IMG/VR virus record: IMGVR_UViG_3300029986_000006
Location: 1-36,203 of that record
DNA: 36,203 bases
Strand: one strand, 5' to 3'
Source of the DNA: a virus
The position numbers and the translations under genes were made by a program. The stretch's first letter is position 1; each line of letters opens with the position of its first letter. The notes below the pieces were generated by a model. That model was not told the origin of the DNA and made no database searches. It was given only the letters and a program-made list of their open reading frames with translations. This document shows, piece after piece, positions 10,651 through 29,872 of the stretch.

Positions 10651-12531
10651 TTAAACTAAAGTTACGCCTGTTCCATTTACAAGAGCATCTGGACGGCGGA
10701 GGCCGCAACCAGCATCTTGACGTAATGAAATTACTGTTTCGCCTAACAATTGGTTAACGTAAGGATTAACAATAAGTTCTGGGGCACCATACATTGCAAT
10801 GTAAACTTCGTCAAACTTGCCGAAAAGAATGTTTTCAGAAGGAACATTGTTTGAAGTTACATAGCTATACCCTGCTAATTCTTTTGCCTTACCATCAAGA
10901 ACGAAATCGCCTGTTGTATCAGTGTTTCCGGCGAATTGACCTTTCTTAACACGCTTCAAGAATACTTCAACTGCACGGCTGAATAACCACTTGAAATTGT
11001 CACTATTTGGAACATTCAAGGATGCTAAAACAGCTTCCATTGCGTTGAGCTTTGCCCAGTCAGGATCACCAGCAAATGCATAAGCATTTAATGATGTTGA
11101 CTGTAATACACCGACAATGTTTCCCAAGCCATTTAAGCAAGCACTATCTAAAGTGACTGCCATTTGTTGGGTCAAAATGTCTTGTATCAAAGAACCAATA
11201 TATGGATCACTGTTGTAAAGCATTGTGTTTGTTACAGTTGATGATCCTGCAATTGGTGTTGGTGTTAATGAAATGTGGGTTGATGTAATATCGCTTGATG
11301 CAAATGTACCTGTTTCCCCTGGTGCTGTTATTGTAAGAGGGTTTTTAACAACAGGAATTTGGATAAGACCTTTTGCACCTTCAAGAACTTTAGCACCAGC
11401 TTTTACTAAGCCAGTATCAGCAAACCATGGACGGCCTAATTCACTGCCCATATAGTTTGTGTTTGAAAGACCATTAACTGTTTGTGAAGTGCCTGTACCT
11501 GAAATATATTGAGTTGTACGTTTGTTTAATTCGCCGACTGGTAACATGATTGAGCGGCCATTTGCTTCTTTACCAAAACGGCTTGAAAGTTCTTGGTTTA
11601 CTTCTTTTACAAAGCCATCAATGCCACGGCCTTCGGCAAGTGAGCGAACAGCACGAGCCAATGAAGTTTCATAGCTTACTGATTCTTTCTTACTGAAACC
11701 CATTTCTGTTCCACTAACTGCATTTTGGTCTGCAATTGGGTTGATTGCGTTCGCACGGCTTGAACTCATTTGTTCAATAATGAATTCATTGAATTCTGCT
11801 GCGGAACGGCTGTTAGCAATAAAATCTTCAGCTTCATTCAAATAACCATATCGTGCTGCTGATTGATAGATTTTTGCCTTTTCTTTTTCGTTGTTGTTTT
11901 CTTCTGACATAATTGATTTAACCTCTATTTTAGTTATGGTTGTATTTGTATTTATCATATCCGTTGAAATATCTTTTTCTAACGGTGTATTTTCAACGGA
12001 TATTATTTCGTCTGTTGAAATCTCTTCTTTATTTATATCTATGCTTCTTCCTACACCAACCGTCTGATCAGCAGGGATAGATACAATACTTATTTCTAAT
12101 GGTTGCCATTCACAAACGGCAACGCCTGTTTTTTCGTTGTATTCATAACCTGTAATTACATATCCAACTGATATATTCATTCGTATTTGGTCTAATACGT
12201 CTTGATAAACTTCCTCTGCTAATTGAGATTTAGAAAATCTTACAGTTGCACGGCCTACACCGTCTTTATCAATTGAAACTGTTTCAATTACGCCAATTTG
12301 CTTTGTTTTATCGTGATCTAACAAAAGAGGGGCACGGCCAGATTGAATAAATGTTAAATCAATATCATTCTTTTGATGTGATAAAACTTCTATGTATTCT
12401 CCTCTGTCATATGGTGTTTCAGATGAAAACGCTATTTCAATGGTTCTTAAATCTTCATCTGCTTTAATTTCAGATGAACTACCATCAAATGAGCGTTGCA
12501 AATCACTTATCTTTATTATCTTCTTTTCCAT
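10651..12531 (-). CDS. Prohead protease-major capsid protein single ORF
   Basis: This 626-aa ORF joins two normally separate head proteins. Residues about 1-185 are an HK97/Mu-like prohead serine protease, with LLLDHD (His) and RMNISVGY (Ser), followed by WQPLEISIVSIPAD. Residues about 208-626 are an HK97-fold major capsid protein with an N-terminal charged scaffold-like arm, MLPVGELNKR, and a C-terminal VISLRQDAGCGLRRPDA. The linker between them looks like an intergenic region: it has GATAAATA (11956-11949), an AGAGGTTA SD and an ATG at 11910 starting MSEENNNEKEK. The capsid could therefore also be made alone as a 419-aa protein. The open frame extends to 12585, but those 18 residues are a shifted reading of the portal tail, so I start at 12531. 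Confidence 0.9.
   Translation of the reverse strand: MEKKIIKISDLQRSFDGSSSEIKADEDLRTIEIAFSSETPYDRGEYIEVLSHQKNDIDLTFIQSGRAPLLLDHDKTKQIGVIETVSIDKDGVGRATVRFSKSQLAEEVYQDVLDQIRMNISVGYVITGYEYNEKTGVAVCEWQPLEISIVSIPADQTVGVGRSIDINKEEISTDEIISVENTPLEKDISTDMINTNTTITKIEVKSIMSEENNNEKEKAKIYQSAARYGYLNEAEDFIANSRSAAEFNEFIIEQMSSSRANAINPIADQNAVSGTEMGFSKKESVSYETSLARAVRSLAEGRGIDGFVKEVNQELSSRFGKEANGRSIMLPVGELNKRTTQYISGTGTSQTVNGLSNTNYMGSELGRPWFADTGLVKAGAKVLEGAKGLIQIPVVKNPLTITAPGETGTFASSDITSTHISLTPTPIAGSSTVTNTMLYNSDPYIGSLIQDILTQQMAVTLDSACLNGLGNIVGVLQSTSLNAYAFAGDPDWAKLNAMEAVLASLNVPNSDNFKWLFSRAVEVFLKRVKKGQFAGNTDTTGDFVLDGKAKELAGYSYVTSNNVPSENILFGKFDEVYIAMYGAPELIVNPYVNQLLGETVISLRQDAGCGLRRPDALVNGTGVTLV
11949..11956 (-). promoter_or_regulatory. 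GATAAATA motif before an internal capsid start
   Basis: GATAAATACAAAT on the minus strand precedes the in-frame ATG at 11910 by 38 bases, the spacing seen at true gene starts in this genome. AGAGGTTA sits about 11 bases before that ATG. This suggests separate transcription and translation of the capsid protein from within the fused ORF. Confidence 0.45.
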
Positions 12532-19130: not shown

Positions 19131-19158
19131 AAGACGCTGATTTTACAGCGTCTTTTTT
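19131..19158 (+). terminator. Intrinsic terminator after the spanin genes
   Basis: AAGACGCTG (19131-19139) pairs with CAGCGTCTT (19146-19154) around a 6-base loop and is followed by a T-run. It lies 12 bases after the Rz1-like stop codon. Confidence 0.88.
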
Positions 19159-20477: not shown

Positions 20478-20560
20478 GATAAATAAAATGTTGATGGCTT
20501 TTTCATTTTTCCATCAAAGCATGTGTTAAAGGCAGAGTTATAAAAGGCTCTGCCTTTTTC
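20478..20560 (+). ncRNA. Candidate short RNA: motif, hairpin and terminator, upstream of lysozyme
   Basis: GATAAATA at 20478-20485 is followed by TTGATGG (20491-20497) pairing with CCATCAA (20511-20517), then an intrinsic terminator at 20528-20559. No ORF longer than 13 codons lies between. A transcript of about 70 bases is predicted. The elements are seen; the RNA itself is inferred. Confidence 0.4.
20528..20559 (+). terminator. Intrinsic terminator before the lysozyme gene
   Basis: AAAGGCAGAG (20528-20537) pairs with CTCTGCCTTT (20548-20557) around a 10-base loop and runs into five T. It insulates the lysozyme gene from upstream plus-strand transcription. Confidence 0.85.
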
Positions 20561-20564
20561 ATTG

Positions 20565-20602
20565 GATAAATATCATCACAAACAATTTTAGGTGATGATA
20601 TG
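20565..20602 (+). promoter_or_regulatory. T4 gene e-like late promoter and SD-masking hairpin for lysozyme
   Basis: GATAAATA (20565-20572) runs into TATCATCAC (20571-20579), which pairs perfectly with GTGATGATA (20592-20600). The 3' arm contains the AGGTGA SD and touches the ATG at 20600. Initiation 6-7 bases after the motif would delete nearly all of the 5' arm. In T4, lysozyme mRNA is likewise masked in read-through transcripts and free in transcripts from the late promoter. The sequence is seen, and the parallel is inferred. Confidence 0.55.
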
Positions 20603-21052
20603 AATATTAGTAAGAATGGTATTGCTTTAATACAATCATTTGAGGGATTACGCCTTCAGATTTATAATGATACAGCCGGTTTAGAAACAATCGGAATTGG
20701 CCATTTGCTTACACAAGCAGATAAAGACAATGGTACATATGATAATGGAATTTCTGTTGATGATGCACTAAGCCTTTTGCGTAGTGATCTAAGCCATGTT
20801 GAAAACTATCTAAACGGCTTATCAATATCATTTACACAAAATGAATATGATGCCTGCTGTAGCCTAGCTTTCAACATCGGTACTGCAAACTTTGATAGTT
20901 CATCGGTTAAGCGTTGTATGCTTGCTGGTGATATACAAGGGGCAGGGGATGCGTTTTTGCTTTGGGATAAAGATCATGTGAATGGTCAATTGGTTGTTGT
21001 GCAAGGATTGCTTAATCGCAGAATTAAAGAACAACAATTATTTTTATCATAA
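20600..21052 (+). CDS. Endolysin, T4-type lysozyme (GH24)
   Basis: This 150-aa muramidase cleaves peptidoglycan in lysis. The catalytic triad has T4 spacing exactly: Glu15 (SFEGLRL), Asp24 (YNDTAG) and Thr30 (ETIGIGH), against T4 E11-D20-T26. The conserved 'AFNIGTANF..SS..k' and C-terminal GLLNRRIKEQQLF are also present. There is no signal peptide or signal-anchor segment, so it needs the holin to cross the inner membrane. The gene is on its own between terminators, and its SD site lies in a hairpin overlapping a GATAAATA motif, so expression timing is probably tightly set. Confidence 0.93.
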   Translation: MNISKNGIALIQSFEGLRLQIYNDTAGLETIGIGHLLTQADKDNGTYDNGISVDDALSLLRSDLSHVENYLNGLSISFTQNEYDACCSLAFNIGTANFDSSSVKRCMLAGDIQGAGDAFLLWDKDHVNGQLVVVQGLLNRRIKEQQLFLS

Positions 21053-21076: not shown

Positions 21077-21181
21077 GATAAATAGATATGAATGAGAATT
21101 GAGACGCTTATTCATCTTCTTAAAATAATGTATGTTTAAAAGAAAAGACGCTTAACATTCCTTCGGTTAAGCGTCTTTTTT
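21077..21181 (+). ncRNA. Candidate short RNA downstream of lysozyme
   Basis: GATAAATA at 21077-21084 precedes a hairpin (ATGAATGAG at 21088-21096 with CTTATTCAT at 21107-21115, one G-U pair) and then a strong terminator at 21145-21181. The longest ORF is four codons (ATG at 21088). A transcript of about 90 bases is predicted. Its build is the same as the candidate at 20478-20560 on the other side of the lysozyme gene. Confidence 0.4.
21145..21181 (+). terminator. Intrinsic terminator after lysozyme region
   Basis: AAGACGCTTAAC (21145-21156) pairs perfectly with GTTAAGCGTCTT (21166-21177), followed by a T-run. The core GACGCTTA also occurs at 21103-21110 within the candidate short RNA. Confidence 0.92.
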
Positions 21182-21286
21182 GTCATCAATGGAGGTTGTT
21201 AGGCACATTGCCCAACAGGCTTATTTATGATCGGTTAGACACTAATCATAGACGGTTCCGAAGCCTGATAGACAGATTTCTAAAAT

Positions 21287-21549
21287 GGGGAGAAAATGGG
21301 GACGAAAAAAAGCTGGCTGTAAACGGTTGATTTATAAGGCTAAAAAAATGCTTCCAGTTCTCGAAGCGTTGAGGATTTAAATCCCTTAAACGCCAAAAAG
21401 AACAGCAAAATCAAGGCTCTAAGAGAAATCTTAGAGCCTTTTTTGTTGGGGGGACGAAAAGGGGACGGTTTAGAAAGCCATTGATTTCTAAGACATTCCA
21501 GTTCTGTATATGGGGACGAAAAGGGGACGTTCTAAGACAGAACTGGAAT
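21287..21549. other. Candidate attachment (attP) region with repeated sites
   Basis: GGGGACGAAAAGGGGACG occurs exactly at 21450-21467 and 21512-21529, with a variant at 21287-21304. TTCCAGTTCT occurs at 21352-21361 and 21496-21505, and inverted at 21539-21548; ATTCCAGTTCTGT/ACAGAACTGGAAT form a 13-bp inverted repeat. TTCTAAGACA occurs at 21486 and 21530. The stretch 21351-21395 (CTTCCAGTTCTCGAAG, then a T-arm-like GAGGATTTAAATCCCTT) resembles the 3' part of a leucine tRNA gene and is followed by a terminator, as expected of an attP core in a tRNA-integrating phage. Repeats are seen; the attP role is inferred. Confidence 0.45.
21413..21444 (+). terminator. Intrinsic terminator with GAAA loop
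   Basis: AAGGCTCTAAGA (21413-21424) and TCTTAGAGCCTT (21429-21440) form a perfect 12-bp stem closed by GAAA and followed by T residues. No phage gene ends just before it, so it may be the terminator of a host tRNA gene carried in the attachment site. Confidence 0.85.
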
Positions 21550-21556
21550 CTAAGCC

Positions 21557-22738
21557 ATGCCTACCATGACCGAAAAACACGAAATGAGGGACGGGCGGTT
21601 GACCCTGTTCATAGACCCATCAATAGCCAAACCAGTTTGGCAAGCCAGGATGAGAATCCCGGATCGTAAGGGCTATATCTTCAAATCTACAGGCACCACG
21701 CTATTAGCCGAAGCTTGCCGGGTTGCGGAAGACATTTTTGATGAACTTCGGTTCAAGGCTAAATCTGGCGTCCCTCTGAAAGATAGAAAATTCAAAGACA
21801 TTCATCCCGAATGGATTAAAACAGGTGCTGCCCAACTGTCTAGCCATCGCCAGACGCTTCATACAGGTTCCGCTAATCGCTACTTTATCCCGTTCTTTGG
21901 TGCTAAGAGCCTTACATCAATCAATGAAACAACATTCGAATCATATTGGGAATGGCGGCTGGCTTACTGGTCAAATGTGAAAGAGGAAGACAGGCCAGGA
22001 AATGCGGCTGTTATACCAGCACAAAAATCAATCCTTATGGAAAAGGGATTGCTAAGCCAGATTTTCAAATGGTGCAAACGGAAGGGCTATATTCAAAACC
22101 TTCCAATGATTGAAATGCCTAAAATTAAATCTAAGGGTAAAGAGGCTAAAAGGCGTCCTCATTTCATGCCGGAAGACATGAAAAAATTACTTAAATATGT
22201 TGATGTTTGGGTTACTGGTGGGCAGCACGATTTACACCGTTTTCAGCGAAAAATGGTTAAGTTCATGTGCTTGTGGATGTATTGGACAGGTATGCGGCCT
22301 AATGAGGTTTTACAAGTTAGGTGGCGTGATACAGAGTTTTTTAATGGCACGATTAAAATTCGCGTTGCCCCAACAACTAAGACAGGCGAACGAACGGTTA
22401 TAAGCATGGACGAACTTGCGTTCTTGTGCCCGGTCATATCAGAGCTTACAGGACACGAAGAAGAGGATGATTTAGTTTTCTGTGATAGAGACGGAAATCC
22501 TCTAAACATCGCATATAAGACGATTAAAGAGCTTTTTAATGGGGCTGGAGTGCTTAAAGACAGTTTTGGTAGGGAACACACCAGCTATAGCTTTAGACAC
22601 ACATACGCAACAGAACGGCTATTGGCTGGCGTCCCGGTTGATAAGCTGGCTAAAAATATGGGAACGAGTGTTCAATACATCATGTCTCACTATGACCATT
22701 CAACAACGGAAGAATTTGCGGAAATCCTGACAAGATAG
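21557..22738 (+). CDS. int: Tyrosine recombinase, phage integrase
   Basis: This 393-aa integrase performs site-specific integration and excision. Residues about 1-60 are a small arm-binding-like domain, and 75-190 a SAM-like core-binding domain (HTGSANRYFIPFFG, then the GLLSQIFKWCKRKG helix). The catalytic domain has Arg in YWTGMRPNEVLQVRW, Lys in TKTGERTV, then YSFRHTYATERLLAGVP and the nucleophile Tyr in MSHYDHS. The first His of the usual HxxR is Tyr (YSFR) and LGH is MGTS, variants found in a subset of phage integrases. The ATG at 21557 is used; 21566 is an alternative. The region upstream is dense in repeats, and a bidirectional terminator follows. Confidence 0.93.
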   Translation: MPTMTEKHEMRDGRLTLFIDPSIAKPVWQARMRIPDRKGYIFKSTGTTLLAEACRVAEDIFDELRFKAKSGVPLKDRKFKDIHPEWIKTGAAQLSSHRQTLHTGSANRYFIPFFGAKSLTSINETTFESYWEWRLAYWSNVKEEDRPGNAAVIPAQKSILMEKGLLSQIFKWCKRKGYIQNLPMIEMPKIKSKGKEAKRRPHFMPEDMKKLLKYVDVWVTGGQHDLHRFQRKMVKFMCLWMYWTGMRPNEVLQVRWRDTEFFNGTIKIRVAPTTKTGERTVISMDELAFLCPVISELTGHEEEDDLVFCDRDGNPLNIAYKTIKELFNGAGVLKDSFGREHTSYSFRHTYATERLLAGVPVDKLAKNMGTSVQYIMSHYDHSTTEEFAEILTR

Positions 22739-22752
22739 GTTGTCATATTCTT

Positions 22753-22780
22753 AAAAAAGGGCGGAATTCCGCCCTTTTTT
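22753..22780. terminator. Bidirectional terminator between int and the nuclease genes
   Basis: The 28 bases form a perfect palindrome built on AAAAAAGGGCGGAA and its reverse complement, with U-runs both ways, between two convergent genes. Confidence 0.92.
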
Positions 22781-23147
22781 ATTGGAATAAATCAAGTTCC
22801 GTTATAACTATGAAAATTATTCCTCGGGCTTCACACCACTTTTCTGCTGATCGCCATTTAGCGATGTTGATAGGTGCTTTACATTGGCTGACTGGTTTGA
22901 TTTCAATTGCGTATGTCTGACCGTCTATCACAGCCACATAATCAATCACATAGAGGCGATTTAAGAGGCTGTGAGGGCAGGTATATGGAACTTTGATAAC
23001 TTCATACCCTATGGACGTAACCGCCCTAGAATCGTCGCATATCGCCAGGAAATGGCATTCCCATTTTGAGCGATATTTTATGCCTTTCGTGTTGATGAAT
23101 TTGGCTGGGTTTGAAGGGCGATAGACGCCCGATCTAAACTTTGCCAC
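22779..23147 (-). CDS. TnsA/T4 gp4-like PD-(D/E)xK nuclease, head completion candidate
   Basis: This 122-aa protein starts VAKFRSGVYRPSNPAKFINTKGIKYRSKWECHF, like the T4 gp4 head-completion and TnsA-type family in which 'NP.Ky....i.YRS.WE' opens the nuclease fold. The PD-(D/E)xK residues are visible as Asp in YVIDYVAV and the ExK in AIEIKP. The C-terminus has KWRSAEKWCEARGIIFIVITE. I choose the GTG at 23147 because it gives this family start and has CAGGAA upstream; an ATG at 23219 would add 24 out-of-family residues. It overlaps the GIY-YIG gene by 14 bases. In T4, gp4 acts on head DNA ends; the role here is inferred. Confidence 0.7.
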   Translation of the reverse strand: MAKFRSGVYRPSNPAKFINTKGIKYRSKWECHFLAICDDSRAVTSIGYEVIKVPYTCPHSLLNRLYVIDYVAVIDGQTYAIEIKPVSQCKAPINIAKWRSAEKWCEARGIIFIVITELDLFQ

Positions 23148-23511
23148 GGTAAAACTTTCCTGACAGACATTTGTTATAAAATTTAAAATCACCATTTGGT
23201 AATTTTGCCCGCAATACATCGTTTAAAAATAACTGTTCGTCTTCAGTGTATGTTAGTTGTGTCTTTGTTTTGTGAAAAGATATGATTTCCCTCTTAAAAT
23301 TATCTTTTCCATATAATTTAATATCGTTTTTTAAATCTTCGCTTGAACCGTAGTAATTTTTCCAGTCGCTTGGCTTTAATTGCTTCTTAACAACACGCCA
23401 TAAATTTTTTTTACCGATGTATTCACGGTTGTTAGTAAGATTTGTTACGCGATATATGAAGCCTAAATATTCTGTTAAATCAATTGTTGTATCGTAAATC
23501 CATTCTGCCAT
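23134..23511 (-). CDS. GIY-YIG endonuclease, Seg-like
   Basis: This 125-aa protein has a GIY-YIG nuclease domain: GFIYRVTNLTNNREYIGKK (residues 17-35) gives the paired GIY/YIG strands, followed by WKNYYGSSEDLKNDIKLYGKDNFKREII, as in T4 Seg enzymes. The catalytic Glu is probably in TYTEDEQLF. There is no clear C-terminal DNA-binding domain, so it may be a stand-alone homing-type or repair nuclease. It is encoded directly upstream of the gp4/TnsA-like nuclease and overlaps it. Its start codon follows a GATAAATA motif with a hairpin containing the SD. Confidence 0.85.
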   Translation of the reverse strand: MAEWIYDTTIDLTEYLGFIYRVTNLTNNREYIGKKNLWRVVKKQLKPSDWKNYYGSSEDLKNDIKLYGKDNFKREIISFHKTKTQLTYTEDEQLFLNDVLRAKLPNGDFKFYNKCLSGKFYRGKV

Positions 23512-23512
23512 A

Positions 23513-23539
23513 AAATAACCCCTTTTGAGGTTATTTATC
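23513..23539 (-). promoter_or_regulatory. GATAAATA motif with hairpin before the GIY-YIG gene
   Basis: GATAAATA (23539-23532) also encodes the last codons and stop of the upstream gene (GAT AAA TAA). AAATAACC (23536-23529) pairs with GGTTATTT (23520-23513) around a loop holding AAAAGG, with the SD spanning loop and stem. Initiation after the motif would skip the 5' arm. Confidence 0.45.
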
Positions 23540-23743
23540 TTCTTCTTCCATGACTTTCATTATAAAGCATTTATTTGATTGCTTGTTAAAAATTAGTGGA
23601 TTGAAGCGTTTGTAAAATGAAATTATTTCTTCTGCCTGATTTAGATTAAAAAATGTGGCTTCTTCAACAAGATGGCACCATTCCCCATCATTCAATATAA
23701 GTGTTTGATCATTTTCTCTCAGGCAAATGACATATTCTTTCAT
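23531..23743 (-). CDS. Small unknown protein, 70 aa
   Basis: This protein starts MKEYVICLRENDQTLILNDGEWCHLVEEATFF and ends with an acidic MKVMEEEDK. It appears to be a small alpha/beta domain and has no family I recognise. The frame extends seven codons upstream, but AAGGA lies at correct distance from the ATG at 23743, so I start there. A GATAAATA motif is 25 bases upstream of that ATG. It is the first gene of a three-gene leftward group with the GIY-YIG and gp4-like nuclease genes. Confidence 0.6.
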   Translation of the reverse strand: MKEYVICLRENDQTLILNDGEWCHLVEEATFFNLNQAEEIISFYKRFNPLIFNKQSNKCFIMKVMEEEDK

Positions 23744-28748: not shown

Positions 28749-29018
28749 ATGAACAAGGATCAACTAAGAACATACAACATTGCATTCAACCGGCATTATG
28801 AATTTATCAAGCATGGCGTTAATAGATTGTTGGCCCAAGTCCTTGGCCACGAGGTGATGATCAAGATAAAAGATGAAGATTATTCATTCGACATCAAAGT
28901 TCGTACCACGTATAACATTGAAGAATTAATCGAACATTATTCAATCGAATTAGATCAATTTGGATTGATTAAGAATGATAAAGATTTAATGTTAGTAAAG
29001 TTAAGTATATCAATTTAA
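28749..29018 (+). CDS. Unknown small protein, 89 aa
   Basis: This protein starts MNKDQLRTYNIAFNRHYEFIKHGVNRLLAQVLGHEVMIKIKDEDYSFDIKVRTTYNIEELIEHY and ends LVKLSISI. It appears to have an N-terminal helix followed by strands, with no known family. Its C-terminal LVKLSI echoes the ends of other proteins in this block (LVKLKF in the 29866 gene), suggesting distant relation. It is first in a plus-strand block behind a good promoter, and shares a near-identical leader, ACAACATTAAGAAGGAATAA, with the next gene. Small early accessory proteins such as anti-defence or host-takeover factors are often found in such places. Confidence 0.7.
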   Translation: MNKDQLRTYNIAFNRHYEFIKHGVNRLLAQVLGHEVMIKIKDEDYSFDIKVRTTYNIEELIEHYSIELDQFGLIKNDKDLMLVKLSISI

Positions 29019-29043: not shown

Positions 29044-29418
29044 ATGAAATACGAATTTTATACAATATTAAAAGAAGAAGAAGACTGTTTTCGGTTTACT
29101 AATTGGATAAAAGAAAATGGCTTAAGCGAATATATTAAAAATATGACGCCACATTTTCACGTTTATAAGATTACCAATGAAATTAAAAGCAACACAACGA
29201 AACGCCAAAAATACAGTGCATATGATGTTGATCAATTGATCCATTACCGTATTCAACAATCTATTTGCTATGTAGTAAGGTTTGAGTTTGAAGCCCCGCT
29301 AAGTCTCGCAACAATTTTTAAGTTAACGTTCAATACAACATCCATCGATAATATAATAAATGAAGTAATAAACAAACTCAAAGAAGATGGTGTAAAATTT
29401 AAGAAAAAACAACAATAG
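29044..29418 (+). CDS. Unknown protein, tandem paralogue 1 (124 aa)
   Basis: This gene is duplicated by the next one. Both begin MKYEFYTILKE and share a C-terminal block FKLTFNTTSIDNII followed by FKKKQ, while the middle regions (about residues 20-90) differ strongly. Here the middle reads FTNWIKENGLSEYIKNMTPHFHVYKI and includes RYRIQQSICYVVRFEFEAPL. The SD leader AGAAGGAATAAAAA is also shared. No family is known. The fold is probably alpha/beta with strand-rich ends. As an early accessory gene, an anti-defence or host-interaction role is possible but not shown. Confidence 0.75.
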   Translation: MKYEFYTILKEEEDCFRFTNWIKENGLSEYIKNMTPHFHVYKITNEIKSNTTKRQKYSAYDVDQLIHYRIQQSICYVVRFEFEAPLSLATIFKLTFNTTSIDNIINEVINKLKEDGVKFKKKQQ

Positions 29419-29434
29419 AAGAAGGAATAAAAAA

Positions 29435-29872
29435 ATGAAATACGAATTTTATACAATATTAAAAGAATATGAAGACTATGATCACTTAGCCAACTGGCTT
29501 CGTGAATATGGGTTAGATGATGAAAGTACAAACATTGAAGAACTTAATCCAATTTATTTGGATGTTGAAATTCAATCTAATCTAATAAAATGCCAATCTT
29601 TTAATCAAAAAGTTATAGATGATTGCATATCAATCGAGGTTGCATATGCAACCAGAAACGTCATTAAAATTGTTTTTGAAGCTCCCCAAGGCTACGCATC
29701 AATTTTTAAGTTAACGTTCAATACAACATCAATCGATAATATAATAAAAGATATAATGCAAGGTCTTAAAAAAGTTGGAATAAAGTTTAAGAAAAAACAA
29801 AACTTAAGCATAGAAGAATGGATTGCAAGTCAAGAATATGAAGCACTGACAGGAAAGGTGATAGAATGGTAA
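29435..29872 (+). CDS. Unknown protein, tandem paralogue 2 (145 aa)
   Basis: This is the second copy of the pair. It has the same first 11 residues as paralogue 1, then EYEDYDHLANWLREYGLDDE, a diverged middle with IKCQSFNQKVIDDCISIEVAYATRNVIKI-like strands, and the shared FEAP...FKLTFNTTSIDNII block. It carries an extra 25-residue tail (NLSIEEWIASQEYEALTGKVIEW) absent from the first copy. DNA identity is near complete at both ends and low between, so either selection or recombination has acted on the centre. It overlaps the next gene by seven bases. Confidence 0.75.
   Translation: MKYEFYTILKEYEDYDHLANWLREYGLDDESTNIEELNPIYLDVEIQSNLIKCQSFNQKVIDDCISIEVAYATRNVIKIVFEAPQGYASIFKLTFNTTSIDNIIKDIMQGLKKVGIKFKKKQNLSIEEWIASQEYEALTGKVIEW

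Follow-up and report, generated by a model that had tools for sequence, protein, structure and literature searches.

In bacteriophage T4, gates over the ribosome site keep early transcripts silent. The T4 genes e, I-TevI, 49, segB and soc have been reviewed as regulated, or predicted to be regulated, by such gates (PMC3014915, PMC2988022), and the leader of gene e reads TATAAATACCT...AGGAGGTATT-ATG. T4 late promoters, whose box is TATAAATA, are described as showing no -35 conservation and as being AT-rich downstream of the box (PMC2988020), and T4-type cyanophages use NATAAATA as their late box (PMC2984593). In the openly licensed papers that we searched, no self-truncating promoter/hairpin gate was described outside the T4-family phages. 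Here we describe a phage in which, in our judgement, four late genes probably carry promoter-cut gates over their ribosome-binding sites.

The window, that is, the whole 36,203-nt stretch of DNA that was analysed, is an IMG/VR virus record. Its two ends share an exact 127-bp repeat, which is the usual sign of a circular assembly, and because of it we take the genome to be probably circular and complete, at ~36,076 bp. The phage is a temperate myovirus with Mu/P2/lambda-type parts, among whose genes we found a terminase, a portal, a protease-capsid fusion, a contractile sheath, hub and wedge genes, a spanin, a lysozyme and an integrase. Its nearest known proteins are distant, TerL matching Roseobacter phages at ~39% and the sheath Bordetella phages at ~40%. 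A preliminary description of this DNA had reported a T4 gene e-like masked ribosome site in an 'otherwise unrelated myovirus', and the latter wording holds: the structural genes are of Mu/P2/lambda type, and no gp55 is detectable.

A late-promoter-like box

The 8-bp motif GATAAATA occurs 17 times in the genome, against 2.6–2.7 expected occurrences. Most sites lie on the coding strand, 20–42 nt ahead of a late-gene start, and 11 of the 17 fall outside annotated genes, despite a coding fraction of 88%. The region from 23.8 to 35.4 kb, where replication genes lie, contains none of them. Upstream of the sites we found no conserved -35 element, and AT makes up 77% of the 20 nt that follow the box. 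The T4 box itself, TATAAATA, was also considered as the box of this phage and rejected, since it is not enriched (4 occurrences vs 3.7 expected).

We infer that GATAAATA is the core box of the late promoters of this phage. Like T4-family late promoters, these would have an 8-bp box in place of a -10 element, no -35, AT-rich DNA downstream and many late genes with one box each. They differ in the first base of the box, which is G here rather than T, and the genome does not encode a detectable gp55.

Some boxes have surroundings of a different kind. At 20478–20560 (+) and 21077–21182 (+), a terminator-like hairpin comes within ~100 nt after a GATAAATA box, and the space between them holds no same-strand ORF of ≥60 aa; these two stretches, which flank the lysozyme gene on both sides, are candidate late small RNAs. 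After the box at 11949–11956 (-), which lies inside the protease-capsid fusion ORF, come AGAGG and an in-frame ATG at 11910, an arrangement suggesting that the capsid part may be expressed separately from that ATG.

The candidate gate at the lysozyme gene

At the lysozyme/endolysin gene (20600–21052, +; PHROG 7, E 1.5e-36), one of the 17 enriched boxes lies at 20565–20572, 27 nt before the ATG. The 5′ arm of the putative gate, ATATCATCAC (20570–20579), overlaps the last three bases of this box and forms with the 3′ arm, GTGATGATAT (20592–20601), a 10-bp inverted repeat without mismatch, closed by a 12-nt loop. The Shine–Dalgarno (SD) sequence AGGTGA (20590–20595) has its first two bases in the loop and the others in the stem, where the A and T of the ATG are also paired. 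The preliminary description was therefore correct in placing the motif here and in having it overlap a perfect inverted repeat, and essentially right that the repeat covers the SD and touches the ATG.

If transcription starts at the predicted site, ~20578, most of the 5′ arm is missing from the RNA. The computed cost of opening the ribosome site is 10–14 kcal/mol on read-through RNA and 2.7 kcal/mol on RNA started ~6 nt after the motif. Taken in isolation, the 49-nt hairpin stands out from shuffled sequences only modestly (z -1.7), so the case rests on where the hairpin lies. A second, terminator-like hairpin (20526–20560, +), with a 12-bp stem and a T-run, ends just before the box and would insulate it and already limit read-through from upstream. 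Since no same-strand gene ends near the box, lysozyme offers the cleanest of the gates.

Three further genes share the layout

The gate had been presented as a feature of the lysozyme gene. This did not stand, as three other genes, all on the minus strand, share its layout. The gp25-like baseplate wedge gene (1133–1585, -; PHROG 180, 7e-37) has a GATAAATA box at 1618–1625, which contains the stop codon of the ORF at 1621–1821; its 13-bp stem AAATACCTGTGAA/TTCACAGGTATTT (1589–1622) holds the SD in the 3′ arm and is followed by a T-run and the ATG at 1585. At the J/gp6-like baseplate wedge gene (9–1088, -; PHROG 6, 8e-68), another site of the enriched motif (1120–1127) is joined to a 13-bp stem, TATACCTATAGAG/TTTTATAGGTATA (1092–1121), again with the SD in the 3′ arm. 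The GIY-YIG endonuclease-like gene (23134–23511, -; PHROG 447/314) has its box at 23532–23539, whose end shares bases with the stop codon of the gene before it, and a 10-bp stem, AAATAACCTC/GGGGTTATTT (23513–23536), whose 3′ arm likewise includes the SD. Between read-through and box-started RNA, the computed opening cost falls from 16.7 to 2.0 kcal/mol at the gp25-like gene, from 16.3 to 3.6 kcal/mol at the J/gp6-like gene and from 11.4 to 2.1 kcal/mol at the GIY-YIG gene. Other genes driven by a box precede the J/gp6-like and GIY-YIG gates.

A T4 gp4-like head completion gene (PHROG 218) adjoins the GIY-YIG gene (PHROG 447), and the pair (22779–23511, -) lies inside a Mu/P2-type temperate phage. 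In cyanophages, relatives of PHROG 447 are annotated as 'NAD synthetase'.

Stem statistics, folding and T4 controls

Each GATAAATA box was scored for a stem with its 5′ arm beginning at the box end. The boxes of the four genes scored 30 (1625-), 26 (1127-), 23 (20565+) and 22 (23539-), and the other 13 reached at most 13; arm scores as high as those of the four are found at 0.5% of random positions. With the downstream sequence shuffled, motif-anchored stems at 4 of 17 boxes have P ~3.5e-7, for a score threshold that was chosen after the sites had been seen and that falls in a wide gap between the two score classes. The same four genes rank first to fourth among 46 gene starts for the cost of opening the ribosome site (16.7, 16.3, 11.4 and 10.2 kcal/mol; median of the 46, 3.1). 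When the RNA was started 5–7 nt after the box, a position assumed from T4, these costs fell to 2.0–3.8 kcal/mol. At all four genes the 5′ arm overlaps with the late box as well as with the predicted start site, the 3′ arm sequesters the SD and/or the AUG, and the RNA from the gene's own promoter is computed to lose the structure. In three of the four gates, as in T4 e, CC or CCT follows the box directly or after one further base. A search of Rfam gave no match.

Four T4 genes treated as controls gave similar values, with opening costs on full and box-started RNA, respectively, of 17.4 and 4.1 kcal/mol for e, 13.9 and 1.3 for I-TevI, 13.4 and 3.0 for gene 49, and 15.7 and 5.8 for segB. For soc, the two values were 8.1 and 5.7. 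The identical stem scan on T4 placed gene e first among 32 exact TATAAATA sites. By this one scan, the share of boxes with a gate is 4/17 here, compared with 1/32 exact boxes in T4.

The geometry matches that of the T4 e gate (PMC3014915): the 3′ end of the late box (AATA) begins the 5′ arm, the SD and start-codon region lie in the 3′ arm, RNA from the own promoter would be without the 5′ arm, and the opening energies drop from 10–17 to 2–4 kcal/mol, as they do from 17.4 to 4.1 in T4. Unlike at T4 e, the box is GATAAATA and not TATAAATA, the arm sequence is another one, a terminator-like hairpin stands upstream of the lysozyme gene, and the phage is a temperate one of Mu/P2 type without a detectable gp55. 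As at T4 I-TevI and segB, the GIY-YIG gene follows another gene and has a late box that overlaps a stem masking the SD. It differs from them in being a free-standing gene after a small gene without assigned function and next to the gp4-like gene, and no intron was seen at it. The proposed gene e-like design is supported by anatomy, by folding and by the T4 values, and is not special to lysozyme. By function the gates would work like that of T4 gene e; they do not count as part of the gp55 late-promoter system.

Proposed mechanism and alternative explanations

In the mechanism that we propose, transcription would start about one helical turn downstream of GATAAATA, near +6 from the box end. At the four genes, the box end and the next 5–10 bases would serve as the 5′ arm and the ribosome site as the 3′ arm. 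RNA reading in from upstream would contain both arms and be closed to ribosomes; RNA from the gene's own promoter would miss most of the 5′ arm and be translated. Translation would in this way depend on the firing of the gene's own late promoter, as at T4 e, 49 and I-TevI. We infer the translation block, the start site and the biological timing. A role in early/late timing is less certain, because a terminator-like hairpin precedes the lysozyme motif and two of the gates sit behind motif-driven genes; the gates may instead separate own-promoter mRNA from any read-through mRNA, not just early from late.

An unlikely alternative, although the best of those considered, is translational coupling, in which the stem would hold the downstream gene closed on polycistronic RNA until its 5′ arm is melted by a ribosome completing the upstream gene, the overlap with the promoter being incidental. 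The stop codons in or at the boxes of 1625- (ORF 1621–1821) and 23539- (ORF 23531–23743) would suit it, as would the stop codon 6 nt before the box at 1127-. The lysozyme box, however, has no upstream same-strand gene end nearby, and a terminator-like hairpin stands between. Moreover, the strongest masking is found at precisely the four motif-anchored starts, even though many gene junctions in this genome are close or overlapping.

We consider it quite improbable that the inverted repeats act on transcription, either as intrinsic terminators that stop read-through RNA or as promoter-overlapping operators of a DNA-binding protein. The T-run after the 1625- stem could terminate upstream transcripts, but the lysozyme and J/gp6-like stems have none. 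The arm sequences and loop lengths (4–12 nt) differ among the four sites while the layout stays constant. This makes a shared operator protein less likely and points to pairing in RNA rather than to one DNA operator; a single operator was accordingly rejected as an explanation. That the stems arose by chance in AT-rich leaders, GATAAATA being no promoter, is the least credible reading: the modest score of the lysozyme stem alone and the failure of gp55 HMM and sigma region searches to find a reader of the box would fit it, but the enrichment and position of the motif, its association with stems at 4 of 17 sites and the top four opening costs all speak against it.

If promoter-cut gating is right, its occurrence at four genes of a structurally unrelated temperate phage would mean that such a design is a general one and evolves easily. 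Since the box ends in ATA, a gate already arises at three of the four genes from CC or CCT after the box and AGG/GG-TAT before the start codon, as it does in T4 e.

The reader of the box and the origin of the gates

Neither a T4 gp55 query nor an HMM of eight gp55s found a gp55 in the genome; the control recovered T4 gp55 at 9e-75. Sigma70_r2 and r4 searches gave nothing convincing, and neither a sigma region 2 nor any other known reader of the box was detected in this apparently complete genome. AlphaFold models of two proteins without assigned function, made without an alignment, were too poor to use (pLDDT 37–38). Judged by sequence, whatever reads the box is not a gp55 of recognisable kind; this raises the question of which factor recognises a T4-like late box in a phage where no gp55 turns up. 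Our tentative picture, which we rate slightly below even, is that of an apparently complete 36-kb temperate phage whose late genes would be expressed from a T4-like box lacking a -35. With no recognisable gp55, it would rely for this on an unrecognised factor of its own, on a host sigma or on co-infection by a T4-like phage, and in the same picture T4-style self-truncating gates would have evolved independently at four genes.

Single-protein and alignment queries with lysozyme, TerL, portal, sheath, capsid and helicase returned only near-identical contigs (3300029908_000188 and 3300028873_000131) or distant phages. The near-identical copies show three substitutions over 20 kb in one and a 13-base gap in the other, none of them in a gate. 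Comparable enrichment of the box was not seen in the distant relatives (~34–43%), nor such a leader in the lysozyme relatives L003, L004 and L006. The lysozyme matches P22-type and Pseudomonas-phage enzymes at ~42% and that of the T4-family phage Acj61 at 36.5%. The preliminary description had left the choice between convergent use and an old shared module. Convergence is probably the origin of the gates, as P22-type and Pseudomonas-phage enzymes are among the best lysozyme matches and the lysozyme arms do not resemble those of T4; an old module fits less well with arms that differ from those of T4 and between genes, and with a lysozyme at least as P22-like as T4-like. Local gene exchange may have occurred at the GIY-YIG and gp4-like genes, since both of these neighbours have many T4-family relatives.

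Other sequence features

The heptamer AAGACGC/GCGTCTT is strongly over-represented in the genome (17 occurrences vs ~2.8 expected; for example at 19131 and 21145) and lies partly in terminator stems. Two adjacent paralogous genes without assigned function at 29044–29872 (+), both beginning MKYEFYTILKE, belong to a rightward cluster beginning at 28749. Immediately ahead of the integrase start, a tandem direct repeat of GGGGACGAAAAGGGGACG (21450–21561, +) possibly represents integrase arm sites near attP.
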